23,135 nucleotides of DNA from a virus. The notes under the pieces were generated by a model, which worked only from the letters and a program-made list of their open reading frames with translations, was not told the DNA's origin and made no database searches. Of this stretch, positions 8,075-14,250 are shown in pieces. Numbering within the stretch: position 1 is the first letter of the stretch; the number at the start of each line of letters is the position of its first letter. The stretch is from IMG/VR virus record IMGVR_UViG_3300020438_000287, positions 1 through 23,135 of that record. One strand, given 5' to 3'. The position numbers and the translations under genes were made by a program.

Positions 8075-8938
8075 ATGGCAGCTCAAGTTCCCCAGAATTT
8101 GACTTCGGATTTCATAAAATCCCGATTGCTAACTTTAGCACAAACTTCGTTTTATAATTTAACGCTTCCTTTACCTGCTGCTGTTAGGAGTAGGGCAAGA
8201 GCAAATGGTCTTCGATTAGAAGGTCAGACGGGTGATCTAAATCAAATTGAATTATTATGTACAGATGCATCTTTGCCTGGTTCTTCATTAGCAACACATG
8301 ATGTTACTAATGACTATCATGGTGTAAGTGAGAAGATGGCATATCGTAGAATATATGATCAGTCTTTTAATCTGAATTTCTATGTTGATAGAGAGTATGA
8401 TGTTATTGAATTATTTGAAACATGGATTGATTACATCTCTGGTAATGATGATAGAGGAATGTCTAAGAATAGGCATCGTAATTATAGGATGAGATATCCT
8501 GATAGTTATAGAGAAGAAATCTATTTAACTAAATTTGAAAAGGATCATCATTTTGATATTAGTGAACATACAAAAGATCTTTTAAACTACACTTTTGTAG
8601 GAGCATTTCCTCAAACAATTACATCAATGCCTGTATCATACAATCAACCTGATATTTTGAAATGTAGTGTATCATTCTCCTTCATAAGGTATGTGGTAGA
8701 AAGATCTTTAAGGGGAGCAAGAGCTGCAAGAGATCAGATGAGAACTGCACCCAGAAATGTTACATTAGGATCTTCTTCTAGTGGTGGAACAAGAGGTAGT
8801 TCTAACATTCTAAATCGAGATGTGACAGATCAGATTGCAAGAGACACCGCACAATATGGAAATACTTTTCCATCAGGTTCTTTTAACATTACTCCAAAAT
8901 CAACTTATAGAACTCCTAGAAGTAGAAGGGGTAGATAA
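8075..8938 (+). CDS. 54: gp54-like baseplate tube initiator
   Basis: 287 aa (T4 gp54 is 320 aa). gp54 sits on gp48 and primes tube assembly. The tube-like fold is suggested by LLCTDASLPGSSL (substrate-facing loop typical of tube proteins), KMAYRRIYDQSFNLNFYVD, a helix VIELFETWIDYISG, and LLNYTFVGAFPQTITSMPVSY followed by a SVSFSFIRYVV strand. This parallels the T4 gp54 stretch with F-T-G-C-I-P-I-S-V-S-A-P-E-L-S-Y and a final VTFAYRV strand. The last 70 residues are Ser/Gly/Arg-rich and probably disordered. No Shine-Dalgarno precedes the ATG. A tail-tube (gp19) paralogue is an alternative, but position opposite gp48/gp53 favours gp54. Confidence 0.65.
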   Translation: MAAQVPQNLTSDFIKSRLLTLAQTSFYNLTLPLPAAVRSRARANGLRLEGQTGDLNQIELLCTDASLPGSSLATHDVTNDYHGVSEKMAYRRIYDQSFNLNFYVDREYDVIELFETWIDYISGNDDRGMSKNRHRNYRMRYPDSYREEIYLTKFEKDHHFDISEHTKDLLNYTFVGAFPQTITSMPVSYNQPDILKCSVSFSFIRYVVERSLRGARAARDQMRTAPRNVTLGSSSSGGTRGSSNILNRDVTDQIARDTAQYGNTFPSGSFNITPKSTYRTPRSRRGR

Positions 8939-8972: not shown

Positions 8973-9692
8973 ATGCCATTACCGACCATTGTAACTCCAA
9001 CTTATGATCTTGAATTACCATCAACAGGGAAGAAAATAAAGTATCGACCCTTTCTTGTTAAGGAAGAAAAACTTCTTGTTTTAGCTTTAGAAACTGAGAA
9101 TCCAAAAGATATTTCAAATGCAATTAAAACTGTATTGAAGAATTGTATTCAAAGTAGAGGTATAAAAGTAGAAACTCTTCCAACATTTGATATAGAGTAT
9201 TTATTTTTGAACATCCGTGGTAAGTCTGTAGGTGAAATTTTAGAAGTTAATATCATATCTCCTGATGATGAGGAAACACAAGTTCCTGTTGAAATAAATT
9301 TAGATGATATTCAAGTTAAAAAAGATAAGGATCATAGTAAAAATATTAAATTGGATTCTAAATTGATGATGGAAATGAAATATCCATCTCTTGATCAATT
9401 TGTTAAAAATAATTTTGATTTTGATGGTAATATTAATATGGATCAATCTTTTGAATTGATCGCATCTTGTGTGAATAAAATTTATAATGAGGATGAAGTA
9501 TGGTCTGCTGCTGACGTTACTAAAAAGGAACTGATAGCATTTCTAGAGCAGATGAATACCATACAATTTAAAGAAATTGAAAAGTTCTTTGAGACTATGC
9601 CCAAACTTTCTCACAAAGTAAGCTTTGTGAATCCTAAAACAGGTAAAGAGAATACCGTAATACTTGAGGGTTTATCGTCTTTTTTCGGCTAG
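8973..9692 (+). CDS. 26: gp26-like baseplate hub assembly protein (tail-chaperone-like)
   Basis: 239 aa (T4 gp26 is 208 aa). The opening YDLELPSTGKKIKYRPFLVK, with a helix EEKLLVLALE, is the conserved start of the T4 baseplate gp26 family. It also looks like the beta-hairpin opening of tail assembly chaperones in other tailed phages. The mid region is charged. The C-terminus has TMPKLSHKVSFVNPKTGKENTVI, a strand pair before LEGLSSFFG. The last codons contain T TTT TTC (9680-9686), a canonical -1 slippery site, two codons before TAG. A -1 shift would extend the protein to 298 aa through the following small ORF. There is no clear Shine-Dalgarno; a CTAAATAA box is 21 nt upstream. Confidence 0.8.
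   Translation: MPLPTIVTPTYDLELPSTGKKIKYRPFLVKEEKLLVLALETENPKDISNAIKTVLKNCIQSRGIKVETLPTFDIEYLFLNIRGKSVGEILEVNIISPDDEETQVPVEINLDDIQVKKDKDHSKNIKLDSKLMMEMKYPSLDQFVKNNFDFDGNINMDQSFELIASCVNKIYNEDEVWSAADVTKKELIAFLEQMNTIQFKEIEKFFETMPKLSHKVSFVNPKTGKENTVILEGLSSFFG
9680..9686 (+). other. Candidate -1 programmed frameshift site
   Basis: T TTT TTC fits X XXY YYZ in the gp26 reading frame (TCT TTT TTC GGC TAG). After slippage both tRNAs re-pair perfectly or by wobble (TTT TTT) and the -1 frame (CGG CTA GGT ATG ATG) is open into the ORF at 9695-9868. GAGGG at 9666-9670 lies 9 bases before the heptamer, like the internal SD stimulator of dnaX frameshifting. No downstream hairpin is obvious. Confidence 0.6.
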
Positions 9693-9694
9693 GT

Positions 9695-9868
9695 ATGATG
9701 CATATGGATCTTGAAAATTATTATAAGATAAATTTTGCCTTATTGCAGTTCCATAAATATTCATTAACTGAAATTGAAAATCTTATTCCTTGGGAAAGAG
9801 ATATTTACATTTCTATGCTACAGCAACATCTTGAGGATGAGAAGCTAAAACAACAACAAAATGGTTAA
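9695..9868 (+). CDS. Small ORF after gp26, possible chaperone extension (gene 51 position)
   Basis: 57 codons from the first ATG (9695; ATGs also at 9698 and 9704), encoding MMHMDLENYYKINFALLQ, then HKYSLTEIENLIPWERD, then IYISMLQQHLEDEKLKQQ. It is amphipathic-helical with a P-W-E-R-x-x-Y-(I)-x-(M/L)-L motif, like the short frameshift extensions (T domain) of tail assembly chaperones. It lies in the -1 frame relative to gp26 and is reachable without a stop from the slippery site. Its own start has only AGGT nearby. It holds the place of T4 gene 51, the hub assembly catalyst, but is far shorter than T4 gp51. It overlaps the next ATG by eight bases. Free translation and fusion are both possible. 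Confidence 0.7.
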   Translation: MMHMDLENYYKINFALLQFHKYSLTEIENLIPWERDIYISMLQQHLEDEKLKQQQNG

Positions 9869-11327
9869 ACCATCAAATAAATTAAAAAAGTTAGCAGCAG
9901 AGAAGATACTATCTGATCTGAGAAGTGATGGAGCTAAAGAAAAGACCACAGTAATAAAAGGATCAAAAATAAATAAAGATTCTTTAACTAAAAGAGTTCG
10001 TAATAATGAGAGGAAAATAACCTCTATAAAAAGTATAATAAAAATTAGAGAAAGTGATTTAGCTCCTAATTTGCAAAGCTTAGAAGAGGATAATTCTTTA
10101 TCATCAATAAGTGGTGGACTTTCATCAATACTTAAAACTATAAGTGGTATTGGTAAATCTTTAAATACTAAAACTAAATCTGATAAGAAGACTAAGGAAA
10201 AGAAAAGAGTAAGAATGAATCGGTTGAAGAAGGAGAAAAGAGAAGAACAATTAGAATCTAAAAAAGAAGAAAAGGATAGTCCAGAAGAAGAAAAGAAAGA
10301 GAAGAAGTCTCTTGGTGGTAATTTCCTTGAAGGAATAAAAAGATTTTTTAAAAATATTCTACTTGGAACTGCTTTACTAACATTATTAAACTGGTTGCGT
10401 AAACCAGAGAACATGGCAAGGTTGCAATCAACCTTAGATTTCTTAACAAATCATGCTGGTCCTATATTTAAAGGATTGATTGCTATCGCAGCAATAGGTA
10501 TTGGTGCAAAATTATATAAGATTATTAGGGGTACTATTAAATTTGCTAGAGCAGGATTAAAAGCTTTGGGTTTATTGAAACCTGCGGTAACAGTAGGAAA
10601 GGGAGGAAGTATAGGTAGCAAATTAAGCAGAATCAATCCATTTAGAAAATCAAACGTATCAACAAGTGGTGGATTTAAAACAGGTCCATTGTCTGGAGTT
10701 AGGAAGAATTTAAGTAAGATAAATCCATTTAAGCAGAGTGCAAAGGTAACACAATCAACTTCTAAAGCTATTACCAGCAATGTAACAAAGAATGTTACTA
10801 AGAATGTGGGTAAGACAGTTGTTAAGAAATCTGTTGCAAAAGGTGCAGGTAAAACAATACTCAAAAAACTTCCGTTTGTCGGACTTGCTCTCGGATTGGG
10901 TTTTGCTATTGATAGGGCAAGAAAGGGTGATTTTGTTGGAGCAACTATGGAACTTGGGTCAGGAGCAGCATCTATGATTCCTGGTTTAGGAACAGGTGCA
11001 TCACTCTTGATAGATGGTGCATTAATTGCTAAAGATTCTGGAGCATTTGGTCAAAATAAAGGTGATATGATTAAAGGTGGTGAGATTATTGGTGATATTC
11101 CTAAAGCTCAGATTAATAAGACTCCTAGTGATATTGGTGAATCTATATCGAAAACAAGTTCTAAGAAAACTACAATTAAAGTTATACCTATAGAAACGAA
11201 TGATGAAAATTCTGCAGGATCATCATCCGAATCTAGCAATACAGAGATTCCATCAGCACCATCTACTTCTGGAGTAGAAAATGATTATACTTCTTCTGTA
11301 TATGGATTATTGGGAGGAGTTGCATAA
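9861..11327 (+). CDS. Tape-measure-like / hub protein, first paralogue
   Basis: 488 aa. The N-terminal 155 residues are very rich in Lys and Glu and probably helical (KKEKREEQLESKKEEKD). Then come hydrophobic stretches at about 163-178 (FKNILLGTALLTLLNW), 202-216, 337-351 and 367-391 (Gly/Ala-rich), with a near-repeat SRINPFRKS / SKINPFKQS around 256-293. The C-terminus is Ser/Thr-rich. This make-up and position, after gp26 and before hub genes, fits a tail length determinator/hub protein in the place of T4 gp29 (590 aa), though I see no clear sequence match to gp29. It shares G-I-G-K-S-L-N-T-K-T-K at residue 96 with the next gene's GGIWKSLNSKAK at 96. Stop overlaps the next ATG (TAATG). Confidence 0.6.
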   Translation: MVKPSNKLKKLAAEKILSDLRSDGAKEKTTVIKGSKINKDSLTKRVRNNERKITSIKSIIKIRESDLAPNLQSLEEDNSLSSISGGLSSILKTISGIGKSLNTKTKSDKKTKEKKRVRMNRLKKEKREEQLESKKEEKDSPEEEKKEKKSLGGNFLEGIKRFFKNILLGTALLTLLNWLRKPENMARLQSTLDFLTNHAGPIFKGLIAIAAIGIGAKLYKIIRGTIKFARAGLKALGLLKPAVTVGKGGSIGSKLSRINPFRKSNVSTSGGFKTGPLSGVRKNLSKINPFKQSAKVTQSTSKAITSNVTKNVTKNVGKTVVKKSVAKGAGKTILKKLPFVGLALGLGFAIDRARKGDFVGATMELGSGAASMIPGLGTGASLLIDGALIAKDSGAFGQNKGDMIKGGEIIGDIPKAQINKTPSDIGESISKTSSKKTTIKVIPIETNDENSAGSSSESSNTEIPSAPSTSGVENDYTSSVYGLLGGVA

Positions 11328-12661
11328 TGGCAATATCAATTCTAGCAGGATTGGGTAAGATGGCTGTGAATAGTGTTTTTGGTGGAAAGAAAAAGAAGAA
11401 ACAGAAAAGGATAAAAAAAGAAAAGGTATTTCAAACAGGGTCAGTTAAAAAGGAAAAGAAGACACCCATAATAACTGGTACACTTATAAAGTCTTCTAAG
11501 AAAAAATTAATATCGGGATCAGATCTTAAAAAAGCAGATAATTTATCCAACAAAAAACAAAACAATGTCAGTTACTTAGACAAGTCATTAATAGTCATTA
11601 ATGCTGTAGCTGGTGGTATTTGGAAGTCATTAAATTCTAAGGCTAAGGTAGAAAAGGAGGAAGATCAGGAAGAGTCTTTGCCTGAAAGAGTTGTATCTGG
11701 GGGCAAACGTTTTCTTAAGTTTATGGGAGCAGATACTGTTACTAATGTAGCAACAAGATTTTTGGGGAACGTTGCAGCAGGAATTGGAGTATTGGTTTTT
11801 ATCAAATATTTTGATGAGATAATGAATATTTTTAAAACTATTGTGAATGTGGTTTCTACAGGAGCTAAAATCATGTGGAATATATTAAAGTTCTTTGGTG
11901 GTCCTCTTTTTAAAATAATATCTGTTTTCAATGGTAAATCTGGTCAAGATTTAAAGAATGCTGAACTGATTAAGAAAGAACTAGATCAAGATATTGTTTC
12001 TGATAAACCCAATGTTGGAACTGTAGAAGATTTAAAAGACGATGGTAAAGAAACGAATGCAAGCAAAGTCATGGACATGGGTGTTTTATCCTTTAATGAA
12101 GGTGGTCAACCTCCTGTAGGTGAACCAGTTCTTGTGGGTGAAAGTGGTCCAGAGATGGTTATATTTGATAAACTATCTACAGTTCTTTCCTCAGAGAATA
12201 CGATGTCTATTATGAATAGTATGACGGAAATGATGTCTGGAAATAAATCTATTATGAATAGTATGACGGAAATGATGTCTGGAAATAAAGAAAGAGTAGA
12301 ATCTATTGTTAGTGAAGCAGAGAGTTTAGAAATTGCACCTATTTTAAAGAAAAGTCTTTCTAATATTATTGAAGCTAAGAAGGATAATATTGAGATTATT
12401 ACTTCACAAATGCGAGGAGTGGAAAATATAGAAAAGACCATAACAACTGATGCTTTAGTTAAGAATTTGCCAATAAAAGAATTGATCAATAAACTTTCAG
12501 TCATCACCGACAAAATTGAGGAAATAGAAGTTCCTGTACCACAATCTAGTGGAGGTGGTTCAATATCAATGGGTGGAGGAGAAAATTCTATGCCAATGAT
12601 TATTCCTATTCAAATAGATACTATGGGCAATATTTTAAAACAGGCTCTATATAAAGAATAA
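11327..12661 (+). CDS. Tape-measure-like protein, second paralogue
   Basis: 444 aa. Lys-rich N-terminus (GGKKKKKQKRIKKEK), then GGIWKSLNSKAK (96-107) aligned with the previous gene, a hydrophobic segment at about 147-159 (GNVAAGIGVLVFI), and an amphipathic helical run to 200. Residues 257-280, NEGGQPPVGEPVLVGESGPE with MVIF, match the G-G-x(n)-G-x-P-x-L-V-G-E-x-G-P-E motif common near the C-termini of tape measure proteins in many tailed phages. Residues 294-321 are an exact 14-residue tandem repeat. The remainder is helical and Ser/Gly-rich. Strong Shine-Dalgarno GGGAGGAG precedes the TAATG start. It is probably an internal tail protein, but which of the two genes sets tail length cannot be told from sequence. 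Confidence 0.65.
   Translation: MAISILAGLGKMAVNSVFGGKKKKKQKRIKKEKVFQTGSVKKEKKTPIITGTLIKSSKKKLISGSDLKKADNLSNKKQNNVSYLDKSLIVINAVAGGIWKSLNSKAKVEKEEDQEESLPERVVSGGKRFLKFMGADTVTNVATRFLGNVAAGIGVLVFIKYFDEIMNIFKTIVNVVSTGAKIMWNILKFFGGPLFKIISVFNGKSGQDLKNAELIKKELDQDIVSDKPNVGTVEDLKDDGKETNASKVMDMGVLSFNEGGQPPVGEPVLVGESGPEMVIFDKLSTVLSSENTMSIMNSMTEMMSGNKSIMNSMTEMMSGNKERVESIVSEAESLEIAPILKKSLSNIIEAKKDNIEIITSQMRGVENIEKTITTDALVKNLPIKELINKLSVITDKIEEIEVPVPQSSGGGSISMGGGENSMPMIIPIQIDTMGNILKQALYKE
12206..12289 (+). repeat. Exact 42-bp tandem duplication within the second tape-measure-like gene
   Basis: 12206-12247 and 12248-12289 are identical base for base. Each encodes SIMNSMTEMMSGNK. The unit is 14 codons, two heptads, so a helical register would be kept. 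Confidence 0.97.
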
Positions 12662-13980: not shown

Positions 13981-14250
13981 ATGACAACTAAAATTCCAAA
14001 TCATGACTTGGATCACGAGGTCTATATCGACCCCAAAGATGGCAAGGAGCATACTAATCATGGTATGCACGAATATAGTAAAGAAGATTTGAAGATGCAC
14101 AATGATGCATTTCATGCACATAATGAATCAGAAGTAAATAAGAATGAGGGTAAGATTAATGATTGGCACACAAGACATGAGGATTCTCATTTAGAGGTAT
14201 ATTGTGATAATCATCCTGACGCAGAGGAATGTAAAGTTTATGACGACTAA
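13981..14250 (+). CDS. Histidine-rich acidic small protein
   Basis: 89 aa with 12 histidines, many acidic residues and two cysteines near the end (CDNHPDAEEC). His residues occur as NH, DH, EH, NHGMH, FHAH, WH, RH and SH along the chain. It has its own strong Shine-Dalgarno (AAGGAGA, overlapping the upstream stop) and couples to the gp5-like gene by TAATG at 14248-14252. Metal binding is suggested by composition. In T4 the spike tip protein gp5.4 (PAAR) binds metal through His, but no PAAR fold signature is visible here. Function unknown. Confidence 0.75.
   Translation: MTTKIPNHDLDHEVYIDPKDGKEHTNHGMHEYSKEDLKMHNDAFHAHNESEVNKNEGKINDWHTRHEDSHLEVYCDNHPDAEECKVYDD

Follow-up and report, generated by a model that had tools for sequence, protein, structure and literature searches.

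Evidence for a programmed -1 frameshift that joins gp26 to a gp51-like C-terminal extension in a T4-like phage locus

The locus analysed here lies in a 23,135-nt stretch of viral DNA (IMG/VR record IMGVR_UViG_3300020438_000287, positions 1 to 23,135), hereafter called the window. Its gp26-family gene and the small open reading frame (ORF) that follows very probably form one two-product gene, in which a -1 ribosomal frameshift would give rise to short and long chaperone-like forms, for which T4 appears to use a gene duplication instead. The first-pass annotation of the window had proposed that this pair is the T4-like equivalent of lambda G/GT; the proposal holds, and the idea had already been published, to judge from its citation in two later papers (Vladimirov et al. 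2022, via PMC10885494 and PMC12846349). As far as these citations convey it, the central idea of T4-like chaperones with a two-gene solution has been known since 2022, and the window is a well-supported new, unannotated instance. What the present analysis adds is a broad body of evidence, strong down to the level of codons, together with the exceptions that it exposes.

The recoding signal and its conservation

The features of the locus are as follows.

8973-9868, plus strand: whole recoding locus, with a predicted 298-aa fusion product (8973-9686, then 9686-9865), whose natural fusion counterpart is T4 gp51
8973-9692, plus strand: gp26-family gene, 239 aa, predicted short isoform, equivalent of TAC-N (TAC, tail assembly chaperone); PF12322, 8.6e-74; PHROG_150, 1.7e-78
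9666-9670, plus strand: GAGGG, putative Shine-Dalgarno (SD)-like stimulator, found by inspection and supported by match statistics and codon bias in relatives
9680-9686, plus strand: slippery heptamer T TTT TTC, kept in phase as T TTT TTN in 138 of 138 distinct single-gene junctions
9690-9692, plus strand: TAG, zero-frame stop of gp26, read in the sequence
9686-9868, plus strand: predicted -1 frame extension, equivalent of TAC-C, 60 codons and a stop, which contains the nominal 57-codon ORF (9695-9868)

The 3' end of the gp26 gene reads TCG TCT TTT TTC GGC TAG, which places T TTT TTC in the X XXY YYZ phase, nine bases downstream of GAGGG, and the positions originally given for both elements proved correct. 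The open stretch of the -1 frame extends from 9668, slightly further upstream than the 9686 that had been claimed, to its stop at 9866-9868, and tandem slippage would indeed yield the 298-aa fusion (238 + 60 aa). Among the 4,725 plus-strand ORF codons tested in the window, this heptamer is the sole in-frame T TTT TT. The gp26 protein matches PF12322 over the full length of the profile, at 248 bits (cut-off 24.5). The small ORF matches PHROG_634 (gp51) at 4.7e-26 and also the C-terminal end of PHROG_150 at 7.8e-6, and fused members are therefore already in the database.

Relatives were chosen by similarity of the gp26 protein, not by the slippery site. Alignment of their junctions, a check suggested in the first-pass annotation, revealed T TTT TTN at the end of gp26 in every distinct junction with the single-gene layout (138/138). 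The P-site codon is TTT throughout, and the A-site codon is TTC in 100 junctions, TTA in 20, TTT in 17 and TTG in one, so that TT is kept and the last base of the heptamer varies. The codon before this TTT is always NNT (AGT 75, TCT 40, AAT 10, GAT 7, GGT 6); it encodes Ser, Asn, Asp or Gly, yet its third base is constantly T. The heptamer was also present in 10 more C48C1-like loci and in 6 more named phages.

The -1 frame was open in every complete junction, and it contained no stop over 16 codons in all 114 junctions of the window type. Over the six codons after the heptamer in these junctions, the ratio of synonymous to nonsynonymous single changes was 1.05 in the -1 frame, and 0.35 and 0.07 in the other frames.

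The suggestion of an SD-like element was likewise supported. Of 71 representatives that share less than 85% identity, 69 match the anti-SD complement by 4 or more bases at a distance of 5-20 bases before the heptamer, as compared with ~37% of background windows. The element lies 8-9 bases upstream of the heptamer and is constrained by codon choice: of 66 Glu-Gly sites, 26 have GGG, versus 7% usage in the gene bodies, and GAA is preferentially paired with GGG (Fisher p = 0.0014, which serves as a guide only because the rows are related).

In the mechanism that we propose, most ribosomes would terminate at the TAG codon, with the 239-aa short form as their product. A smaller share would pair with GAGGG, move back by one base at T TTT TTC and continue translation to 9865; the resulting 298-aa long form would have an additional, helical domain at its C-terminus. 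Both forms would act as tail assembly chaperones, as gpG/gpGT do in other tailed phages. In T4 and its close relatives, the gene would have been duplicated, with gp26 keeping the short form and gp51 being a permanent long form.

Alternative explanations and the weight of the evidence

The small ORF could instead encode a separate protein, reinitiated at the ATG at 9695 or at a later ATG after the gp26 stop, which we consider very unlikely. The ATG of the window lies three bases past the stop, close relatives often carry a Met in H-M-x-L-E, and a TAATG overlap occurs at the gp26/small-ORF junction of several Ackermannviridae. However, the ATG that corresponds to 9695 is missing in many close relatives, and in 43 of 134 junctions the first 14 codons past the slip contain no ATG, although the protein encoded there, ahead of any ATG, is still conserved. 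Independent initiation therefore cannot explain the small ORF. In one junction, SRB7757, the small ORF lacks any ATG, GTG or TTG, and the block ...ALSH.SLENYY... is still conserved. The SD match before the first ATG, which is at most 4 bases in 133 of 133 junctions and 2 bases in the window (most gp26 starts, 4-7), is also poor for a separate start, and separate initiation leaves the heptamer unexplained.

Transcriptional slippage on the T run, which would add a base to the mRNA and produce the identical fusion, is just as improbable. The run is T6 in most loci and T8 in the Melnitz-type loci; a run of six Ts before C, A or G is, however, short for polymerase slippage. Moreover, the fixed bases are just the six needed for tandem tRNA re-pairing, and the SD-like element, which acts on ribosomes, is under constraint. 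Least probable of all, and already contradicted, is an incidental heptamer in an AT-rich gene that ends in Ser-Phe-Phe. TTT is the commoner Phe codon (69%), but T TTT TT occurs at only 5 of 258 comparable contexts (other xF[FL] sites within the same gp26 genes), against 138 of 138 at the junction, and T4-type gp26 genes often retain Phe-Phe written as TTC TTT, which gives no heptamer.

Several points weigh against programmed frameshifting of a chaperone gene. Because of the ATG at 9695, the window by itself is compatible with independent initiation. RNAalifold found no conserved downstream RNA structure across the 114 junctions; a 5-bp stem, GGTCC-ATAT-GGACC, which begins ten bases after the heptamer and is complete in 30 of 60 ATG-type sequences, was considered and is not claimed, since, bar one pair, it is not above column shuffles. 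The slippage itself, its efficiency and the chaperone function are what we infer from the sequences. Finally, the comparison of predicted folds with tail assembly chaperones, suggested in the first-pass annotation, gave a match below significance for gp26 and none among the matches listed for gp51. AlphaFold2 models were obtained for the gp26 of the window (pLDDT 87, pTM 0.81) and for a T4-type gp51 (pLDDT 89, pTM 0.83). The HK97 gp13 tail assembly chaperone (2OB9) ranked first among 350,542 PDB chains for the gp26 model, but with E = 1.1 and a probability of 0.75, and the gp51 model had no HK97-type chaperone among the matches listed. The modelled likeness of gp26 to the HK97 chaperone is thus suggestive only. 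Sequence comparison with HK97 gp13 and lambda G gave no similarity, and a PDB sequence search with the gp26 profile gave nothing relevant.

Taken together, a -1 frameshift at the gp26 junction is strongly supported as the probable reading of these sequences, because of the conservation of the heptamer, of the frame and at the codon level, the lineages that lack a start codon, and the in-frame fusion seen in T4 gp51. This reading corrects the annotation of hundreds of marine phage genomes, which present the C-terminal half as a gene of its own or cut it at a false start.

In the public annotations of Melnitz-3 and syn9, gp51 begins only at an internal Met, which removes the conserved ...ALSH.SLENYY... 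block; in those of Ah1 and Asswx_1, the small ORF is missed altogether. The misannotated gp51 loci are L082 (3750-3893), L083 (3771-3914), L084 (3717-3887) and L182 (3205-3372).

T4 gp26 and gp51, and the Ackermannviridae

In T4, gp26 and gp51 each match PF12322 over its full length (gp51, 3.9e-52), and the extra C-terminus of T4 gp51 is homologous to the small ORF, with a profile of 15 extensions matching residues 207-244 (E 6.8e-5). By these matches, T4 gp51 is the natural in-frame version of the predicted fusion. The first-pass annotation had described T4 as not known for such a shift; short and long forms do exist in T4, and the correction to be made is that a duplication, with gp26 as the short and gp51 as the long form, appears to replace the shift. 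Both T4 proteins appear among the hub assembly chaperones in PMC3004832, and gp51 is required, yet it is not found in the particle.

Two PF12322 genes per record were found in T4, 44RR and a Klebsiella phage, and one in all of the other named records (18/18), which include Synechococcus, Prochlorococcus, Methylophilales, Aeromonas, Stenotrophomonas and Vibrio phages. A tree of 46 proteins placed gp51 in one group (support 100/99), the gp26 of two-gene phages in another (85/58), and all single-gene phages on the other side (93/91). The Aeromonas phages Ah1 and Asswx_1 belong to the Straboviridae, the family of T4, and retain the frameshift layout. Because this layout occurs in these two phages within the Straboviridae and in the Kyanoviridae, the frameshift is likelier to be ancestral, and the T4 duplication derived. 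A search of IMG/VR for relatives of Vibrio K448 found none.

Through these comparisons, gp26 and gp51, the two classical hub factors of T4, find a place in the general scheme of short and long chaperones. The comparisons also supply a clear natural example of one job for which programmed frameshifting and gene duplication would have been exchanged.

One T4-type gp51 (L095, 3001-3360; IMGVR_UViG_2974754850) carries an in-frame TAG after ~120 codons, whereas the first tblastn match had spanned the whole protein; this TAG is either a sequencing error or a real break.

The single-gene phages without T TTT TTN are the Ackermannviridae and their kin. Fifteen Kuttervirus-type loci have a conserved C-terminal ORF in the -1 frame, with TAATT and without a slippery heptamer (ATT TTC ATT TAA); the first conserved stretch of this ORF contains no ATG, GTG or TTG. 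The Kuttervirus-type loci read GAR ATT TTC ATT TAA TTT TTG, with no start codon before the conserved DLLSYF. We tentatively suggest a single chaperone family with three routes to the long form, namely, the T TTT TTN frameshift in the Kyanoviridae-type and other phages, duplication in T4 and its close kin, and a third route in the Ackermannviridae, perhaps a non-canonical -1 recoding signal, although this scheme is doubtful. The loci in which gp26 and the -1 frame C-terminal ORF are kept and T TTT TTN is absent are L186 (Salmonella phage heyday), L196-L210, L183, L184, L185, L188, L190 and L193.

Neighbouring genes and comparison with known systems

The gp26 locus is flanked by two genes.

8075-8938, plus strand: tail tube protein gene, adjoining gp26 upstream; Phage_TTP_2, 1.1e-14; PHROG_45, 2.5e-35
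9861-11327, plus strand: 488-aa gene, directly downstream, overlapping the end of the -1 ORF; PHROG matches of the peptidase/endolysin type

Chaperone genes of the gpG/gpGT type lie between the tail tube and tape measure genes. Here the tail tube gene upstream is confirmed, and the genes downstream, which the first-pass annotation called tape-measure-like, are at most candidates for the tape measure. The 488-aa gene is related to the gene at the same position in P-HM1, C48C1 and syn9, and it also resembles a longer single gene of syn9. The adjacent 444-aa ORF (11327-12661) is served by a strong SD of its own, with a TAATG overlap, and its weak similarity to the 488-aa ORF (24%, E 2e-5) may reflect composition bias; the two are possibly a split or duplicated tail gene. 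A CP12-domain gene (13981-14250; Pfam, 5.1e-7) within the structural gene cluster points to a cyanophage.

Like the -1 site of dnaX, the gp26 junction combines a heptamer with an upstream SD-like stimulator. The dnaX site (A AAA AAG) also requires a downstream hairpin, and this hairpin has no conserved counterpart at the gp26 junctions. As in lambda gpG/gpGT and HK97 gp13/gp14, short and long forms with a common N-terminus are predicted here, on the basis of sequence. The chaperone locus of the Vandenendeviridae and Andersonviridae likewise shifts to the -1 frame on a T run, close to where the short ORF ends, and that frame is open across relatives, but its slippery motif differs, being an invariant GTTTTT (PMC12846349).

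For T4-like phages, the tail assembly chaperones have been treated by Vladimirov, Gautam and Davidson (Virology 566:9-15, 2022), a study drawn on here through later citations. The PRFect paper cites it for the statement that T4-like phages, in place of frameshifting, encode the short chaperone and the long fusion by separate genes (PMC10885494), and the Adele paper cites it for T4-like TAC-N genes that carry poly-T slippery signals (PMC12846349). T4 gp26 and gp51 share with the locus of the window both the family (PF12322) and the C-terminal domain; the long form of T4 is a second gene, whereas here a single gene with a -1 shift would provide both forms.
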